From Gemmatimonadota bacterium (GTDB taxonomy: Bacteria; Gemmatimonadota; Gemmatimonadetes; Gemmatimonadales; Gemmatimonadaceae): a stretch of DNA of 64,000 nucleotides. The stretch covers positions 1 through 64,000 of the forward strand of contig JAQBQB010000021.1 of assembly GCA_028287235.1 (NCBI GenBank), given 5' to 3'. Both the position numbers and the translations under genes were made by a program. The notes beneath the pieces are model-generated. The model saw only the letters and a program-made list of their open reading frames with translations, was not told where the DNA came from and made no database searches. Shown here piece after piece: positions 16,543 through 23,841 of this stretch (positions are counted from its first letter, which is position 1; every line of letters starts with the position of its first letter).

Positions 16543-17517
16543 CTAATGCACGCCCGCTGTGACGAACGGGCTGCCCAGTGCAAGCAGGTCGGCGGGGTCG
16601 ATGGTCAGCGCACCGAACCTCGCACTCCAATGAAGGTGCGGGCCCGTGACGCGCCCGGTCGACCCGACCAGCCCGATCTCCTGGCCGCGTTCCACCGTGT
16701 CGCCTACCGCCACCTCGGGCCGGCTCATGTGGAAGTAGGCCGTCACGAGCCCGTCGCCATGGTCGATGTACACAACGTTGCCCGCGAGGAAGAACTCCGC
16801 GACGAGCGCGACGACACCGCGATTCGCCGCGTAGATCGGCTCGCCGACGGCGCCGCGATAGTCGATCCCGAGGTGATTGCTCGACACGCGTCCGTTGAAC
16901 AAGCGTCCGCTGCCGAACCGGCTCGTCACGCGCGATGCGCGCGGGCGCAAGAACGGCAGAGTCCACAGCTGTGGCGTATCCTGCGCTCGATGGCCAACTT
17001 GTCTGGCAAGCTCGTTCTCGTGCTCGACGCGCGCGTCCGCCGCGGAATCCGTCCGCTGCGTGAACCGTTTGTCGACGCTGAGCCGCCGCGCGTTCTTCGC
17101 GCGGCCGCGCGCTTTCGCCGCTGGCGCAGGAGGTGGCTGGTGCGGATATCGAAGAACGGCACGCACCGTATCGACGGCTCCCGATTGCCGCTGCAGTTCC
17201 ACGCGCGCAACGACGGAATCCGAAACGCCAACGGGAATCGCGCCGAGTGCTTGCAGGCGTCCGCCTGGCACGCCGCGAAAGTGCAGCGGCTCGCCCGCCA
17301 TCTGCCCCGTGACGCTCACGACACTGTCGCCGCGGCCGAGGCGGTCGATCGTCAACCGAACGAGGGAGCCGCCCGACGGCTGGCGTGGCTCGACAGCGAG
17401 CCGTGGCTGCTGCGGCAGCTGCCGCAACTGCGCGCGAGCGACGTGCGGCGACGCGACGATGAGAGCGCCAAGTGCGCCGAGCGTGTGACGCGCGAGACGC
17501 GCGTGAAGAAATCGCAT
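16543..17517 (-). CDS. M23 family metallopeptidase (LytM/peptidoglycan endopeptidase)
   Basis: The 324-residue product has a signal peptide (LGALGALIVASPHVARAQ) and a linker/Ig-like region with a Pro/Arg-rich spacer. The C-terminal M23 domain (~195-310) carries the zinc motif HLGID (His215, Asp219) and the second motif HLH (294-296). These enzymes cut peptide cross-links in peptidoglycan. All expected ligands are present, so it should be active. ATG 17517 begins the signal peptide; the much longer upstream frame runs antisense through the neighbouring peptidase gene and is a shadow. It is divergent from the 17586 gene, with 68 bases between. Confidence 0.85.
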   Translation of the reverse strand: MRFLHARLARHTLGALGALIVASPHVARAQLRQLPQQPRLAVEPRQPSGGSLVRLTIDRLGRGDSVVSVTGQMAGEPLHFRGVPGGRLQALGAIPVGVSDSVVARVELQRQSGAVDTVRAVLRYPHQPPPAPAAKARGRAKNARRLSVDKRFTQRTDSAADARVEHENELARQVGHRAQDTPQLWTLPFLRPRASRVTSRFGSGRLFNGRVSSNHLGIDYRGAVGEPIYAANRGVVALVAEFFLAGNVVYIDHGDGLVTAYFHMSRPEVAVGDTVERGQEIGLVGSTGRVTGPHLHWSARFGALTIDPADLLALGSPFVTAGVH

Positions 17518-17585: not shown

Positions 17586-19805
17586 ATGGATGTAGTCCGC
17601 CGGTTTTCGCTCCTGGCCACGGCCAGTCTGCTGGGTATCGCGGTGATGCTCGGATGGGCCAGCGCTCGACCGGTGATGAGCTCAAACGCCGCGTCGTCGC
17701 TGTCGAGCGCCTCGTCGTATTTCGATTCGACGATCGTGCTCGCGCGCGGATCGCGGCCGCGTGGCTCGCGCGGCGACGAGCTGGTGATCGCGCTCGGCTA
17801 TCTCGAGCGGTTGCGCCTCGGGCTGGGAAGTCCGTTCCGGCTCGTGGACGAAGCCGCGCACGATCCGCGGCTTCGCGGCGACATGAGCCCGCGCGTGGCG
17901 TGGGCGGTGTTGGCACGCTTGCGTCGCGGTGACGCGTACGCGATCGACGCCTCGGTGCTCGACGGGGCCGGCCCGTGGGCGCACGATGGCCGCGGCACCA
18001 CCGGTGCCGCGCACCTCGCGTTGATCGAGCACGCCGTGCGCGGCGGCTCCGATCCGCGCGCCGGGGAGCTCGCGGTGCGGCTCGCGTATCAGATAGAAGC
18101 CGCGAAGGGCGCGTTGGCGTCGTCCAGCGTGTCGATCGCAACGCAGGTCGCGGCGCTCGTGCGCGATCGCGAGCTCGCCGTGGCGGACGTCGCCGACCTG
18201 TTCGCCGACGCAGGCGGGCGGCACGCGGACGTGCTCGAGCTGCTCGCGGCGCGGCGTGCCGAGCACACGTTCCGTGTGGAGCGGCCGCCGCTCGCACCCA
18301 TCGGCGCCGACCTGCAGCTCGAGGCGATGAACGCCGTGCCCGGGCTGGTGCGCGCGCTCGATACGCTGGACCGCGTGGACGCGCCACCGCTGACGGCCGC
18401 TGTCGACAAATCGTCGCCGGTGATCGGACGGGCGTTCGCGGCGCGGCTTGTGGTGCTGAGCCAGAGCCGGCCTCCGGTTGCGCAGGTCGTGGTGACGTTG
18501 CGCAGCCACGAGCGAACGGCGCTGCGCGCGACGAACGACGAATCGCTCGCCGCCGGCTATTCGCCGGCCGCCGTTCGATCGGATTCGGCGCGGCGGCCCA
18601 CGGCGCTCGCGCTGCTGTCGGCGGCGGTCGCGCTTCGCTCGCTCGCGCAGCAGGTTCCGTGGTTCGCCGGCGACGGCGGTCCGGACGCCGCCGATCTCGC
18701 CGCGGAATTCGGGCTCGCCAATGTGTCGTTCGCGCGCGGTGTGCCGAGCGAGTGGCGGCCGTACTACATGCGCGAGCTGCAAGGTGCGTTGCGCGACATG
18801 CAGCGCGTGCTTCCGACGTTCGCGATGGACGGCCTCCGCGTGCAGTTCGGCGTGGACGCGCTGCCCGACTCGGCGCTCGCCATGCACGACCCGCGGACAC
18901 GCACGTTGCAGCTCTCGGTGTCGACGTCGGGTGGAACGCTCGCGCACGAGCTGTCGCACGATCTCGACTGGCAGGCGTCGCGCCGGCTGTTCGCGGTTGC
19001 CGGGGGGTACAGCACCGACCGGTCGATTCGCGAGCGGCGCGGCACGTTGGCGCGGTCGCTGCGCGGGCTGGCCGAAGCGCGGCTGCTCCGCTCCCCGGGC
19101 GTAGCGGCCACGGCGCCGATGGACCGGCCGGCCGAGCTGTTCGCGCGCGGCGCCGACTGGTTCGTGGCCTCGTCGCTCGCGCAGCAGGGCCGGACGAACG
19201 GCTTTCTCTCGGCGATCGAAGACGCGTCGCTCGGCGGCTACGCTGCCGGTCCGCCCACGGCGATCGGCGTGGCGGGAGCGGGTGCGCTCACATCGGCGAT
19301 CGAGGCGATGACGTATCTTCCCGATTCGACGCGCGCCGCGTTCGAGTCGCAGTGGTCCGATCCGCGCGTGGTCGATCCCACGCTGCTCGTGCGCCGGGCG
19401 CTCGAGACGCCGGTGTCGTGGCGCGCCGCGTGGCAGCTTCGCGGCGGCGCGGCCGGCGCAGCCGGCTCGCTCGCCGGTGCGCCGGCGCAGCTCTGCGTCA
19501 GCGACGACTCACCGGCATCGCGTGCTCGTGAGCGTTTGCTCATGACGGCCGTGGACGCGCGGGCACGCGGGATGGCGCTGCGCCGGGCGCGGTACCGGCC
19601 GGCGGCGTGGACGCGACCGGAGTGGGCGAGCAGTGTCCTCGGTCTCGCGCCATGGGCGCCCGACGAGGGCCTGCGACTGATCGACGGCCTGCGCGCGGCG
19701 ATCGTGAGCGAATTGACGTCGGCGCTGCCCGATCAGGGCGTAGTGCCGGCCGTGCCGGTGATCTTCCGCTCCAACGCGGCGAGCTGCTCGAGTATCTCGC
19801 GCTGA
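17586..19805 (+). CDS. Putative secreted/membrane-anchored metallopeptidase (HELSH motif)
   Basis: The 739-residue product starts with a signal anchor (FSLLATASLLGIAVMLGWA). Much of the protein is Ala/Arg-rich helical sequence. The active-site motif HELSH at residues 454-458 fits the HExxH zinc peptidases. About 60 residues later PAELFARGADWFV offers a Glu that could be the third zinc ligand, as in gluzincins. The family is not recognised more closely. Its last 73 bases overlap the 3' end of the convergent DUF421 gene. ATG 17586 is the start that exposes the signal sequence. Confidence 0.7.
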   Translation: MDVVRRFSLLATASLLGIAVMLGWASARPVMSSNAASSLSSASSYFDSTIVLARGSRPRGSRGDELVIALGYLERLRLGLGSPFRLVDEAAHDPRLRGDMSPRVAWAVLARLRRGDAYAIDASVLDGAGPWAHDGRGTTGAAHLALIEHAVRGGSDPRAGELAVRLAYQIEAAKGALASSSVSIATQVAALVRDRELAVADVADLFADAGGRHADVLELLAARRAEHTFRVERPPLAPIGADLQLEAMNAVPGLVRALDTLDRVDAPPLTAAVDKSSPVIGRAFAARLVVLSQSRPPVAQVVVTLRSHERTALRATNDESLAAGYSPAAVRSDSARRPTALALLSAAVALRSLAQQVPWFAGDGGPDAADLAAEFGLANVSFARGVPSEWRPYYMRELQGALRDMQRVLPTFAMDGLRVQFGVDALPDSALAMHDPRTRTLQLSVSTSGGTLAHELSHDLDWQASRRLFAVAGGYSTDRSIRERRGTLARSLRGLAEARLLRSPGVAATAPMDRPAELFARGADWFVASSLAQQGRTNGFLSAIEDASLGGYAAGPPTAIGVAGAGALTSAIEAMTYLPDSTRAAFESQWSDPRVVDPTLLVRRALETPVSWRAAWQLRGGAAGAAGSLAGAPAQLCVSDDSPASRARERLLMTAVDARARGMALRRARYRPAAWTRPEWASSVLGLAPWAPDEGLRLIDGLRAAIVSELTSALPDQGVVPAVPVIFRSNAASCSSISR

Positions 19806-20338
19806 CGCGCTTCAATTTGGCCGATCAGGCCGATCGTCTCGTGATGCCGCATGTCGTCGTCGGTCGGGTGCTTCTGCGTGAAGGTCAGCGCGCCGCCCGT
19901 CTCGAGGCGGCAGTCCCGGACGTGGGCGAGCGAATCGATTCCCTGGCGCCGCGCCGCCGACTCCAGCTCGGCCACGGTGATCAGCTCGCGCTCGAGGTGA
20001 TGGCGGAGAATGCGGCCGTTGCGGATCAGCGTGTCCGGCTTGCCTTCGATCGTGTCGAGCTTGCCGTAGTGGTAGAGCGCACGAACGAGGACGCCGTTGA
20101 GGACCAGCAGCGTCGCCGCGCCCACGAGGCCGCCGATGAGAGAATTGTCATTTCCGATGATCGCGTTCTGCACCGTGTTGGAGAGGAGCAGGAGCACGAC
20201 GAGGTCGAACGGGTTGAGCTGGGACAGCTCGCGCTTGCCCGCGAGGCGCAGCCCGATGAGGAGAAAGGCGTACACGACGACGGTGCGCACCAGCTTGTCG
20301 CCGAGGGAAATGCCGGGGGTGAGGAGGTCATTTAGCAT
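19733..20338 (-). CDS. DUF421 / YetF-type membrane protein
   Basis: The 201-residue product has three N-terminal transmembrane helices (~15-35, ~42-60 and ~65-85, with RLAGKRELSQLNPFDLVVLLLLSN between helices). A cytoplasmic domain follows with the family's RNGRILRHHLERELITVAELESAARRQG segment, then a coiled-coil-like Gln/Glu-rich tail. The order and spacing match the DUF421/YetF family, whose biochemical role is unknown. Its 3' end overlaps antisense the preceding metallopeptidase gene by 73 bases, covering the low-complexity tail. Confidence 0.85.
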   Translation of the reverse strand: MLNDLLTPGISLGDKLVRTVVVYAFLLIGLRLAGKRELSQLNPFDLVVLLLLSNTVQNAIIGNDNSLIGGLVGAATLLVLNGVLVRALYHYGKLDTIEGKPDTLIRNGRILRHHLERELITVAELESAARRQGIDSLAHVRDCRLETGGALTFTQKHPTDDDMRHHETIGLIGQIEARQREILEQLAALERKITGTAGTTP

Positions 20339-20483: not shown

Positions 20484-21776
20484 TCAGCCACCCTTCTCGC
20501 GCCGCTCGAGGCGCTCGCGCAACGTTCTTCCAATTCGCCGCTCGGCTTTGGGGCCGACGTCCCACGCGTCGAGATGGCGCAGCAGGAAGTCGAGGGAGAA
20601 GACGTGGCGCGTCTTGTCGCGGTCGCGGCGGAAGACGACGTGCGACCAGCCGCGCATGCCGGTTGGCGTGTAGAGGTCGCGCGCGAGCTGGAGCTTGCGG
20701 CCCGAGATCGCGCGGATGAACACGCGCTCGTACTTCGAGCGGGGCAGCGCGCGCACGGGGAACAGATTGGCCCATGTGCACAGGCGCCCGACGCTGTCGT
20801 ACGACGGCGGACGGTCCTCGAGCTCGAGGAGCGACGGCGCGCGGCCGTCCATGACGGCCGAGATGAGCCGAAGAGAGCGGTCGTCGCCCAAACGGCTGAT
20901 CGACGGCCAGAAGTAGCGCGTAATGCGCGCGGCGATGCGCCGGAGCGACAGCGTATCGCCGCCGTCGGTGCCCCATACCGGTGCGTTCACGTCGGCCATG
21001 AACGGATTCTCGGTGAACGACGAGAAGCGCGCGACCCAACCTTTGCGCGAGCTGTGCGGCTCGGGCGTGAAGCGGCGCACGCGCGGAAAGTCGTGCGCGT
21101 CGAGCGCGTCGAGCTCGAACGACGGCCAGCGCATCACCTCGCGTGCTACACCGACGATGACCGTCGCCGTGGCGATCATCAGCGCGGCGTCGGGCGTGAA
21201 GTCCGCGGTGATCTCGATGCGATTGCCGCGCGGGCGCACGCCCACGCCGGTGGAGCGGCGGTTGGCCGCGAGCAGCATGACCGGCATGGCCAGGACGTGC
21301 GTGAGCAGCAGCGCCAGCTTCTCGACCGTGCGGCTCGCGCCGCGCTCGCTCTCCGGTAGGTCGAACGACACGTTGTAGTGCGTGCTGAACCCCGCGAGTT
21401 GCACCGTGTGGTCACGACGCTCCTCCCAGGCATCGAGCTCGGCGCGGAGAAAGCGTATACTCTCCCAGAGCGAGCGGCCGGCACGCGCCGCGCAGCCCTT
21501 GTCGATCTCGATGATCGGCGTGGCGATCTCGATGACGCCGGTGTCGAAATACACCGCGCCGCCGGTGGGCATGTGATAGGAGCGCCCGGTGCGATGCATC
21601 ATGGGTCCGCGCACGATGTGCCGCGGACTGCGGAAGACGTCCTCCGGCTTGACCGGCTCGCCATCGAGGACGACGGAAAATTCCGCCTCGAGCCCCATCG
21701 CGGCGAGTGCCGCCGTCGGTTGCCGAAGCCGGTCGTCGCCGCCCTTCGGCAGCTTGCGCTCGTCGCGCGTCGTCAT
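20484..21776 (-). CDS. Carboxylate-amine ligase of the glutamate-cysteine ligase / Pup-ligase-like fold
   Basis: The 430-residue product shows GLEAEF at 28-33, the Mg/ATP-binding beta-strand motif of this superfamily. GGAVYFDTGVIEIATP (72-87) resembles the matching strand of PafA/Dop and GCS-type ligases. RRSTGVGVRPRGNRIEI (~175) and Arg-rich ATP-contact segments follow. These enzymes join a carboxylate to an amine using ATP. The substrate is unknown. It is the third gene of an operon: its ATG overlaps the preceding stop as ATGA, after an M15-fold protein and a beta-lactamase-like hydrolase, hinting at peptide or cell-wall-fragment chemistry (inference). Confidence 0.65.
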   Translation of the reverse strand: MTTRDERKLPKGGDDRLRQPTAALAAMGLEAEFSVVLDGEPVKPEDVFRSPRHIVRGPMMHRTGRSYHMPTGGAVYFDTGVIEIATPIIEIDKGCAARAGRSLWESIRFLRAELDAWEERRDHTVQLAGFSTHYNVSFDLPESERGASRTVEKLALLLTHVLAMPVMLLAANRRSTGVGVRPRGNRIEITADFTPDAALMIATATVIVGVAREVMRWPSFELDALDAHDFPRVRRFTPEPHSSRKGWVARFSSFTENPFMADVNAPVWGTDGGDTLSLRRIAARITRYFWPSISRLGDDRSLRLISAVMDGRAPSLLELEDRPPSYDSVGRLCTWANLFPVRALPRSKYERVFIRAISGRKLQLARDLYTPTGMRGWSHVVFRRDRDKTRHVFSLDFLLRHLDAWDVGPKAERRIGRTLRERLERREKGG

Positions 21777-22405
21777 GACGCCCTCCGTTCAGCGTCGAAC
21801 CCGAGATGGTTCTCCGGCGCGTTCCGCGGCATGGAGAGCACGTAGCCCAAATCGATGTGCAAATGGTCATCCGTTTCGCCCGGGCTCGACCCGAACGGAC
21901 GCGTCCATGCGCTCGGCATCGCATCGCGGGCGAGGGCGGCGTGCCGGTCGATCGACTCGCGCGTATCGAGGAAGACGTCGCCGACGCGATAGATGTTCAC
22001 CGCGGTGCCCCAGCAATGCGGCGACCCGTTCACGCTGAGCGCGTGGCGCGGTGAGCGATAGCCGCCGTTGGCCGCGATGTGGACGAAGGTGCCGGTGGCG
22101 TCTCGGAAGCGCTCGAGCGCGAGCGCGAGGAGCGTGATGGCGCACGGGACATAGCGCGGAAAGGCGCGCAACGGCGCCGCCTCGCGCACGTCGGTCTGAA
22201 TGAACTCCCACAGCCCGAAGCTCGGCGAGAGCTTGAGCTCCATCGCGCTGCTCCACGTTGGGATCTCGTAGAAGTAGCGCGGCAGCCGGCGCGCGTGGCC
22301 GGCGTCGTTGGCCACGATGCGCCCCGGCAGCAGCGCGTCGCGCAGCGCTTTCTCGAGGCGGAGCCCGTCGACCACTCGGAGCGGAAAGCGATTGGCGTCA
22401 GCCAC
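21773..22405 (-). CDS. M15-fold (D-Ala-D-Ala carboxypeptidase-like) protein, possibly zinc-site altered
   Basis: The 210-residue product contains the M15 landmarks GYRSPRH (~128), SPHCWGTAVNIY (~141) and DDHLHIDLGY (~190). In active M15 peptidases the second motif is SxHxxGxAxD, with His and Asp as zinc ligands; here the Asp is Asn. The HLHID part is intact. It may bind rather than cut peptidoglycan-type peptides, or use Asn unusually. No signal peptide is seen. GTG 22405 was chosen: GGGAGG lies 7-8 bases upstream and it overlaps the previous stop by 8 bases. The longer upstream frame is a shadow. Confidence 0.7.
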   Translation of the reverse strand: MADANRFPLRVVDGLRLEKALRDALLPGRIVANDAGHARRLPRYFYEIPTWSSAMELKLSPSFGLWEFIQTDVREAAPLRAFPRYVPCAITLLALALERFRDATGTFVHIAANGGYRSPRHALSVNGSPHCWGTAVNIYRVGDVFLDTRESIDRHAALARDAMPSAWTRPFGSSPGETDDHLHIDLGYVLSMPRNAPENHLGFDAERRAS

Positions 22406-23294
22406 GAGGTGATCCTCCCGGCGCGTGCAACAGCTCGTACACGGCGTGCGACACCTCGGCGATCGTGGCGGACCGGCCGGTCGACTCGGGCGACCATTCG
22501 GTGAGCACCGCAATGACGTACGGTTTGCGCCCCGGTGTGTAGACGACACCCGCATCGTGCGCGATCGTCGAGATCTCGCCCGTCTTGTGCGCGACGCGGA
22601 CGGCGCGCGGCAAGCGGGCGGGGATGCCGCTGCGAAATTCCTGCGCGTGCAAGATGGTCAGCATGTCGCGCGACAGCTCCGGCGAGAACGCGCGCTCCTC
22701 GGCGATGAGCCGCAGCAGCTGCACGAGCCCGTCGGCGGTGACGCGGTTGTTGATGCCGTACTGGAAGGCGCGCTCGTCTTCCACGCCGCGGCGAATGTCG
22801 ATGCCGTCGACGTTGAGCTCGTCGAGGCTGCGCTGCACCGTGTCGAGCCCCACGAGGTCGAGCAGCAGATTCGTGGCGAGGTTGCTGCTCGTCGTGATCA
22901 TGTGCAGCGCGAGGTCGGAGATGCGGAGCATCTTGCCGATTGCATCGTGGACCGCGGAGTTCGCGTCGCGGTCGGCGAGCACGCGAAACGGCTGGCCGTC
23001 GACGGCGCTGAGAAACCGGTTCCGCACGTGCAGGCGCGAGTGCGGCAGCAGCCAGCCGTGGTGAATCGACGCGTACACACCGAGCAGGATGGCGACCTTG
23101 ATCGTGCTCGCGGCGTGGAACCAGCGGTCCGCGTGGCGGCGAAAGCTCGTTTGCGTCTCGGTGTCGTACACCGCGACGGCGAGCGAGCGCGCGCCCGATT
23201 TTCGCTCGAGGGCGTCGAGACGAAGATGCAGCGCGTCGAGCGCCTCGATGTGGGGTTGAGGCGCGACCGAGTGACCCAGCACAGGGGAGGGCAT
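22398..23294 (-). CDS. Class A beta-lactamase-like serine hydrolase without signal peptide
   Basis: The catalytic motifs of the class A/penicillin-binding fold are present: STIK (S-x-x-K) at about residue 60, SSN (S-x-N) about 75 residues later, and KTG near the C-terminal third (HKTGE). An acidic VEDE stretch lies where the omega-loop Glu is expected, but ExxLN is not clear. No Sec signal is visible, which is unusual for a periplasmic lactamase, so a cytoplasmic esterase/peptidase role is possible. ATG 23294 has GAGGG just upstream and is preferred; ATG 23375 has no ribosome site and would overlap the divergent CYTH start. First gene of a three-gene operon. Confidence 0.75.
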   Translation of the reverse strand: MPSPVLGHSVAPQPHIEALDALHLRLDALERKSGARSLAVAVYDTETQTSFRRHADRWFHAASTIKVAILLGVYASIHHGWLLPHSRLHVRNRFLSAVDGQPFRVLADRDANSAVHDAIGKMLRISDLALHMITTSSNLATNLLLDLVGLDTVQRSLDELNVDGIDIRRGVEDERAFQYGINNRVTADGLVQLLRLIAEERAFSPELSRDMLTILHAQEFRSGIPARLPRAVRVAHKTGEISTIAHDAGVVYTPGRKPYVIAVLTEWSPESTGRSATIAEVSHAVYELLHAPGGSPRG

Positions 23295-23373
23295 TGCGCC
23301 CTCGACAGTGGCAAAGGGAGTGCCGAGCAACGAACTTGGTTGAGCCCGCTTGTTGCTCTCGGTAGTATCAGTC

Positions 23374-23841
23374 ATGGCGACCAACGAACGTGAAATCGAG
23401 CGAAAATATCTGTTGCGCGCGCTACCGGCCGAAGCGGCGGGCGCGCCGGTCGTCGAGATGGACCAGGGCTACCTGCCGGGCGAACGGATTCTCGAGCGCA
23501 TTCGGCGGGTGACAGCCGCCGACGGCGTACGATACTACCGGACCGTGAAGGTCGGCGTCGGGATTGAGCGACTCGAGTTCGAGGAAGAGACGACCGAGCT
23601 CTTCTTCACCACGGTCTGGCCGCTGACCCGTGGCCGGCGCGTTCACAAGCGCCGGTACGTCGTTCCCGCTGGCGGAATGGCCTGGGAAATCGACGAGTTC
23701 CTCGATCGAACGCTGGTGCTGGCCGAGCTGGAGCTCGAGCGGGCGGATCAGGCGGTGGAGATCCCCGGGTGGCTCCGGGCGGCCCTCGATCGGGAAGTGA
23801 CCGAGGAAAAAGGATTCAGCAACTTCGAGCTGGCGCGGTGA
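23374..23841 (+). CDS. CYTH domain protein (triphosphate tunnel metalloenzyme)
   Basis: The 155-residue product opens with EIERKYLL (residues 6-13), the signature strand of CYTH/TTM proteins. Alternating charged strands follow (GYLPGERILERIRRV, LEFEEETTEL, RRVHKRRYVVP, WEIDEFLDRTLVLAELELE), as needed to line the tunnel with basic and acidic residues. Family members hydrolyse inorganic triphosphate or thiamine triphosphate, or act as adenylyl cyclases; which one applies here cannot be told. It is transcribed away from the beta-lactamase operon. Confidence 0.88.
   Translation: MATNEREIERKYLLRALPAEAAGAPVVEMDQGYLPGERILERIRRVTAADGVRYYRTVKVGVGIERLEFEEETTELFFTTVWPLTRGRRVHKRRYVVPAGGMAWEIDEFLDRTLVLAELELERADQAVEIPGWLRAALDREVTEEKGFSNFELAR

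Follow-up and report, generated by a model that had tools for sequence, protein, structure and literature searches.

The three-gene locus and its distribution

We analyzed a stretch of 64,000 nucleotides from a Gemmatimonadota bacterium (assembly GCA_028287235.1, contig JAQBQB010000021.1, positions 1 to 64,000; hereafter the window), in which three overlapping genes on the minus strand form a cassette that spans positions 20484-23294. In this order they encode a serine hydrolase, a protein with a predicted M15/LAS fold and a carboxylate-amine ligase with a predicted Dop/PafA fold (Table 1). The GTG start of the M15 gene overlaps the stop of the hydrolase gene by 8 bases, and the M15 and ligase genes are joined by an ATGA overlap, which agrees with the three-gene operon proposed in an earlier reading of the window from its letters alone (the sequence-only reading). 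Upstream of its ATG, the hydrolase reading frame stays open as far as a TTG at 23384. Twenty other Gemmatimonadaceae genomes carry all three frames in unchanged order and with 58-82% identity, so these are not chance reading frames.

Joint inheritance of the three genes, an expectation of the sequence-only reading, was confirmed in both directions among 148 related genomes. The ligase is present in 21 of these, and hydrolase, M15 and ligase genes follow each other in this order in all 21. Conversely, a profile of the M15 family found the cassette-type protein (>300 bits) in exactly the same 21 genomes, with all other matches below 31 bits. For a wider sample, one genome per species was scanned and the best 80 of 115 ligase relatives were kept as loci. 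The full trio with unchanged gene order occurs in 77 of the 80; at two of the exceptions the contig ends (L059, L082) and the third (L118) is a second, stand-alone ligase copy, whose genome (G152) holds the complete trio at another place. According to the record titles, the loci belong to Gemmatimonadota, Pseudomonadota (Ramlibacter, Caenimonas), Verrucomicrobiota, Acidobacteriota, Rhodothermota and one metagenome-assembled genome of Bacteroidota; binning errors are possible in such genomes. Over 60 loci, the pairwise identities of any one cassette protein correlate with those of the others (Mantel r 0.91, 0.90 and 0.84; highest value of 500 permutations 0.17). There is good support for viewing the trio as a single functional unit.

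Presence of the cassette is patchy within one genus, as one genome (G004) of a genus with cassette-bearing members does not carry it. On the M15 tree, a contig labelled Gemmatimonadetes (L080) sits among Ramlibacter, and the ligase of a contig labelled Bacteroidetes (L066) is 62-68% identical to Gemmatimonadota ligases; these placements reflect either transfer or misbinning. Cargo of a mobile element was rejected, since the ligase has no tblastn match in plasmid and phage collections, and so was a role in anti-phage defence, since none of the three proteins matches a PADLOC family at E <= 0.01. A description of the trio was not found in our literature searches, which covered the papers in part; a mention in the amidoligase survey of 2009 is possible.

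Table 1. Genes of the cassette and adjacent features in the window
Feature	Position	Strand	Remarks
Class-A-beta-lactamase-fold serine hydrolase	22398-23294	-	298 amino acids from ATG at 23294; PF13354, motifs
M15/LAS-fold protein	21773-22405	-	210 amino acids, GTG start; predicted structure, PF08291 in part of the family
Dop/PafA-fold carboxylate-amine ligase	20484-21776	-	430 amino acids; predicted structure, motifs
CYTH-like gene	23350-23841	+	divergent from the cassette; Pfam E 2e-4, slightly below the cut-off
YetF/DUF421 membrane protein gene	19733-20338	-	directly downstream of the ligase, same strand
M23-type peptidase-like frame, apparently secreted	~16543-17500	-	judged by eye from the translation

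Folds and conserved residues of the cassette proteins

For the comparison of the proteins, sets of 93 M15, 101 ligase and 77 hydrolase rows were used, in which some genomes are counted twice (78 of the M15 rows are distinct). Of the sequences at the 80 loci, 24 hydrolases were left out, 21 because no start lay near the expected position and three because there was no match. Eight M15 proteins were left out on the same grounds (six and two, respectively), and three of the retained hydrolase open reading frames (ORFs) are shorter than 150 amino acids. Besides the window sequence, the alignments A4, A5 and A6 contain sequences from 56, 54 and 43 of these loci, respectively. A hydrophobicity screen for export signals (mean Kyte-Doolittle value of at least 1.6 over 15 residues, within the first 50 residues of each row) flagged 1/77 hydrolase, 1/93 M15 and 16/101 ligase rows. 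The 16 ligase rows are taken to reflect the first core strand of the fold. Signal peptides, which the sequence-only reading had found lacking, are thus not evident by this screen.

The ligase of the window has no match in Pfam, NCBIfam or PDB sequences, and no relevant Pfam or NCBIfam family was found for 57/57 aligned members of its family. As the ligase is without a family match and the M15 protein stays under the family cut-off, both assignments rest on structure. With the predicted ligase model (predicted local distance difference test, pLDDT, 90.2), Foldseek ranked PafA and Dop first (E 2e-8 to 4e-6), ahead of YbdK. Structural alignment with VIA-align gave Z 21.1 for Dop (5lrt; root-mean-square deviation 3.7 over 344 residues, model range 24-411, both domains), Z 18.5 for PafA (4bjr) and Z 17.4 over 258 residues for YbdK. 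Identity to Dop and PafA in the structural alignment is 11-13%. The model shows a Dop/PafA fold for the third cassette protein, which had been described from the sequence as GCS/Pup-ligase-like and is structurally nearer to Dop/PafA than to GCS2.

The ligase contains the motifs GLEAEF, YFDxGxxExxTP and HYN, and residues E30, E32, D78, E83, H133, N135 and E188 are present in 101/101 rows. GhExE and [HQ]x[NH] are given as superfamily motifs by Iyer et al. 2008 (PMC2588565). Both are carried by the ligase, as GLEAEF and HYN, and align with the PafA/Dop motifs in the profile alignment. The active site of Dop comprises R90, Y92, D94 and H95, of which D94 probably activates water (PMC8599861). Y76-x-D78 of the ligase falls opposite the Y92/D94 region in the profile alignment, and D78 matches D94. 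The E value of the comparison with PafA/Dop varies with the rows used: 6.6e-5 (16 rows), 0.0014 (6 rows) and 0.017 (7 rows). Because the profile alignment is by itself moderately significant and becomes weaker with fewer PafA rows, it is the fold that carries the assignment. PF03136 was matched at E <= 0.1 by none of the 57 ligase members and was found in none of the 148 genomes, G000 included. GCS2 (PF04107) is not among the families matched by the 57 members. An origin of the ligase from GCS2 was rejected, as the profile comparison is non-significant (hhalign E 0.46, 30 GCS2 rows; one of the GCS2 row sets used was poorly extracted); the window genome holds its own GCS2 genes elsewhere. Three of the Acidobacteriota genomes with the trio carry a second copy of the ligase that stands alone, with neither a hydrolase nor an M15 gene beside it (L118/L136 in G152, L138 in G199, L146 in G149). 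This suggests a separable ligase function.

The M15 protein of the window matches Peptidase_M15_3 weakly (E 0.17, under the Pfam cut-off) and a PHROG endolysin family with E 6e-6. PF08291 is matched at E <= 0.1 by 26 of 55 family members. The predicted model (pLDDT 91.6) has a LAS/hedgehog fold and aligns with 1lbu at Z 9.4 over 114 residues (ChiX 6.8, others near 7), in keeping with the M15 fold recognized from the sequence; Foldseek returned no match under E 0.001 with this model. At the places of the zinc ligands, His130 is found in 93/93 and His183 in 90/93 rows. Residue 137 is Asn in 81/93 rows, among them the window protein, and Asp in 12/93. On a tree of the 78 distinct rows, built with column 137 included, the Asn/Asp label switches at least six times, and four of these switches are forced by strongly supported branches. 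The replacement of Asp by Asn noted in the sequence-only reading is thus real and is not unique to the window sequence. Since Asn and Asp alternate, it does not represent a family-wide loss of a zinc ligand, and a metal site that is degenerate throughout the family was rejected. Asn137 may be an alternative ligand that has arisen repeatedly, or it may indicate that metal use has changed.

The hydrolase matches the Pfam family Beta-lactamase2 (PF13354; E 7e-47, 160 bits, cut-off 22), and its best PDB profile match is TLL2115 (E 4e-35). It reaches 100 bits with the NCBIfam class A model NF033103 (cut-off 200) and stays under every NCBIfam class A cut-off shown. The motifs SxxK (S93, K96), S166-S167-N168 and K267-T268-G269 are invariant or nearly so in the family. 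SSN replaces the usual SDN in 74/74 filled rows, and no counterpart of Glu166 was seen in the hydrolase. For these two reasons, a lactamase activity appears doubtful from the sequence.

Genomic neighbours and possible functions

In several lineages the cassette lies beside genes of diaminopimelate (DAP) and cell wall metabolism. In six of eight Acidobacteriota genomes with room, it directly follows the genes asd-lysC-dapB-dapA-dapD-aminotransferase on the same strand (L137, L139, L140, L141, L142 and L145, but not L143 and L147; the contig of L144 ends just upstream). The six genes were family-checked on L140 and located by tblastn at the other loci. SLT and RlpA-type lytic transglycosylase genes are found downstream of the cassette at Acidobacteriota loci. 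An mpl gene lies within ~5 kb of the ligase in 14/80 loci, where its arrangement takes at least three forms: convergent and downstream, convergent and nearly adjoining, or divergent and upstream. Its identity was confirmed by NCBIfam on L046. Nine loci have a DppB-type permease gene upstream of the cassette, and seven of these also have a gene for a family 5 solute-binding protein. At Verrucomicrobiota loci, a Peptidase_C26 gene of the gamma-glutamyl-hydrolase type is divergent from the cassette in 17 of 19 cases, and dapA lies farther upstream in four. The DAP biosynthesis, mpl, peptide permease and lytic transglycosylase neighbours support the cell-wall peptides that the sequence-only reading had guessed as substrates. 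The CYTH-like gene of the window is also present at three loci of near relatives (L042-L044).

Co-occurrence was analyzed over the whole genomes of the 148 relatives. Clear mpl-type genes, defined as 22 genes above 300 bits and one partial gene at 241 (next best 224; eight over the curated cut-off), are present in 16/21 genomes with the cassette vs 7/127 others. Counted by genus, mpl was found in 7/7 genera with and 4/60 without the cassette (Fisher 4e-7). Genes of the S66 (LdcA) family occur in 21/21 cassette genomes vs 59/127 others, and at least two copies in 17/21 vs 10/127.

Since different lineages place the cassette beside different parts of the same metabolism, the best single reading, which we hold tentatively and at somewhat less than even confidence, is that the cassette processes DAP-containing murein peptides, imported or recycled, in the cytosol; it is the neighbours that point to this substrate. 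The peptides would either come from the wall, entering the cell through an Opp/Mpp-type permease after their release, or be synthesized from the DAP pool. The class-A-fold hydrolase and the M15/LAS protein, whose folds elsewhere act on D-amino-acid peptides, would trim them. In this step the M15 protein could hold a metal via His, Asn/Asp and His, or it could act as a peptide-binding subunit. The Dop/PafA-fold enzyme would use ATP to activate a gamma-glutamyl carboxylate and join it to an amine or, like Dop, break such an amide. PafA joins the gamma-carboxylate of the terminal Glu of Pup to the epsilon-amine of lysine. By this analogy, L-Ala-D-Glu and DAP are candidate substrates, which would yield a free murein tripeptide that Mpl attaches to UDP-N-acetylmuramic acid (UDP-MurNAc). 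In its most specific form, which we regard as quite unlikely, the proposal is a soluble MurE-like step, in which the ligase would form the gamma-D-Glu-DAP amide of the free tripeptide independently of the UDP-MurNAc pathway; together with its two peptidase-fold partners in the cytosol, it would constitute a peptide salvage cassette found over at least five phyla.

Several observations weigh against the processing of DAP-containing murein peptides. The cassette of the window has no DAP or recycling gene alongside, its neighbours being CYTH and YetF instead, and of the 17 neighbour genes that were looked for, the Ramlibacter loci have none but DUF885, at two loci. The DAP operon context probably arose once, in a single clade. 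A clear mpl gene is lacking in five genomes with the cassette (G001, G002, G003 and G005, of the window's genus, and G069), and the co-occurrence tests ignore phylogeny beyond the genus. Because mpl is common in Acidobacteriota (132/297 over the cut-off), its presence in 6/6 cassette genomes of this phylum tells little and was dropped as support for a link to recycling.

Alternatively, the cassette might serve DAP, lysine or polyamine metabolism. The ligase would put a gamma-glutamyl group on one of the free diamines DAP and lysine, yielding a storage compound, a protected intermediate or a solute, and the two peptidase-fold proteins together with C26 would remove the group. The DAP/lysine operon next to the cassette in Acidobacteriota would fit this role, as would the C26 gene of the Verrucomicrobiota loci, whose family includes the gamma-Glu-gamma-aminobutyrate hydrolase (the match is under the cut-off of that model). 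We consider this role unlikely, as it accounts neither for the two wall-peptidase folds nor for the mpl, permease and lytic transglycosylase genes near the cassette. A general replacement of DapE was excluded, because DapE is clearly present (501.6 bits, cut-off 361.8) in one Ramlibacter genome (G155) in addition to the cassette; the DapE matches in Acidobacteriota are ambiguous M20 relatives.

Editing of cell wall precursors is very doubtful. Here the ligase would extend the stem peptide of UDP-MurNAc-peptide or lipid II by an amino acid or an amide, and the two peptidase-fold proteins would trim it. Such a role agrees with the wall-peptidase folds, the DAP and mpl neighbours and the lack of evident signal peptides. 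However, mpl is the sole gene of the mur cluster seen beside the cassette in the gene lists made, in which annotation was non-exhaustive, and the absence from one member of a cassette-bearing genus (G004) suits an accessory function better than one that defines the wall.

Protein modification, in which the ligase would attach a Pup-like tag or a single amino acid to proteins and the peptidase-fold proteins would mature or remove this tag, is highly improbable. Although fold and catalytic motifs are common to the ligase, PafA and Dop, no conserved small gene neighbours the cassette among ORFs of at least 80 amino acids (Pup is shorter or about as long), and PF03136 is absent from all 148 relatives. 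Two PF03136 genes were observed besides the cassette in a Verrucomicrobiota genome (G153; locus L108, also L150 and L159), so that pupylation and the cassette can coexist. The tailoring of a peptide natural product, the other proposal of the sequence-only reading, for which a ligase with two peptidase-fold proteins would be a plausible set and the patchy distribution (21/148) would speak, has very little probability. The neighbours give it no support, as no biosynthetic genes were noticed beside the cassette and those in three phyla belong to primary metabolism; nor was a plasmid or phage match found.

If DAP-containing murein peptides are indeed the substrates, a further branch of the Dop/PafA fold would link protein tagging and cell wall metabolism through one fold, and murein recycling of widespread soil bacteria could have an extra cytosolic step. 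Three proteins with no or loose annotation gain one shared, testable class of substrates, the DAP peptides. Since named Ramlibacter strains carry the cassette, such tests are practical.

Comparison with known systems

The hydrolase shares the fold family PF13354 and the SxxK and KTG motifs with class A beta-lactamases, from which it differs by SSN instead of SDN, NCBIfam scores under the cut-offs, the missing counterpart of Glu166 and the lack of an evident signal peptide. With LAS metallopeptidases (M15: 1lbu, ChiX, VanX/VanY; hedgehog) the M15 protein has the fold and the motifs SPxH...HxxGxAx(N/D) and HxD in common. It differs by Asn at the metal place in most rows (81/93), by the lack of an evident export signal and by an N-terminal part (~residues 1-55) that the 1lbu match does not cover. 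In passages of PMC3060825 on the recycling of murein peptides (Opp/MppA import, LdcA, Mpl), no cassette protein appears in the pathway, nor is any of the three known to belong to it. Permease, mpl and S66 genes adjoin or co-occur with the cassette.

With the ligase, GCS2 enzymes like YbdK have the superfamily fold in common (Z 17.4 over 258 residues), while a match to PF04107 and a significant profile comparison are lacking. Two further uncharacterised carboxylate-amine ligase families of the same superfamily are mentioned by Iyer et al. 2008 (PMC2588565). One of these adjoins a glutamine-amidotransferase-like peptidase, which recalls the C26 gene at the Verrucomicrobiota cassettes. As described there, the contexts of both families (fusion with a transglutaminase; amidotransferase-like peptidase or Aig2) do not include the trio, which sets them apart. 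From Dop and PafA the ligase differs by its low identity (11-13% in structural alignment), by the lack of a PF03136 match and by its place next to peptidase-fold genes instead of proteasome genes, with no pup gene seen among the ORFs of at least 80 amino acids compared. In common with both it has the two-domain fold, the GhExE motif, the Y-x-D motif with the Asp matching D94 of Dop and the H-x-N strand motif.

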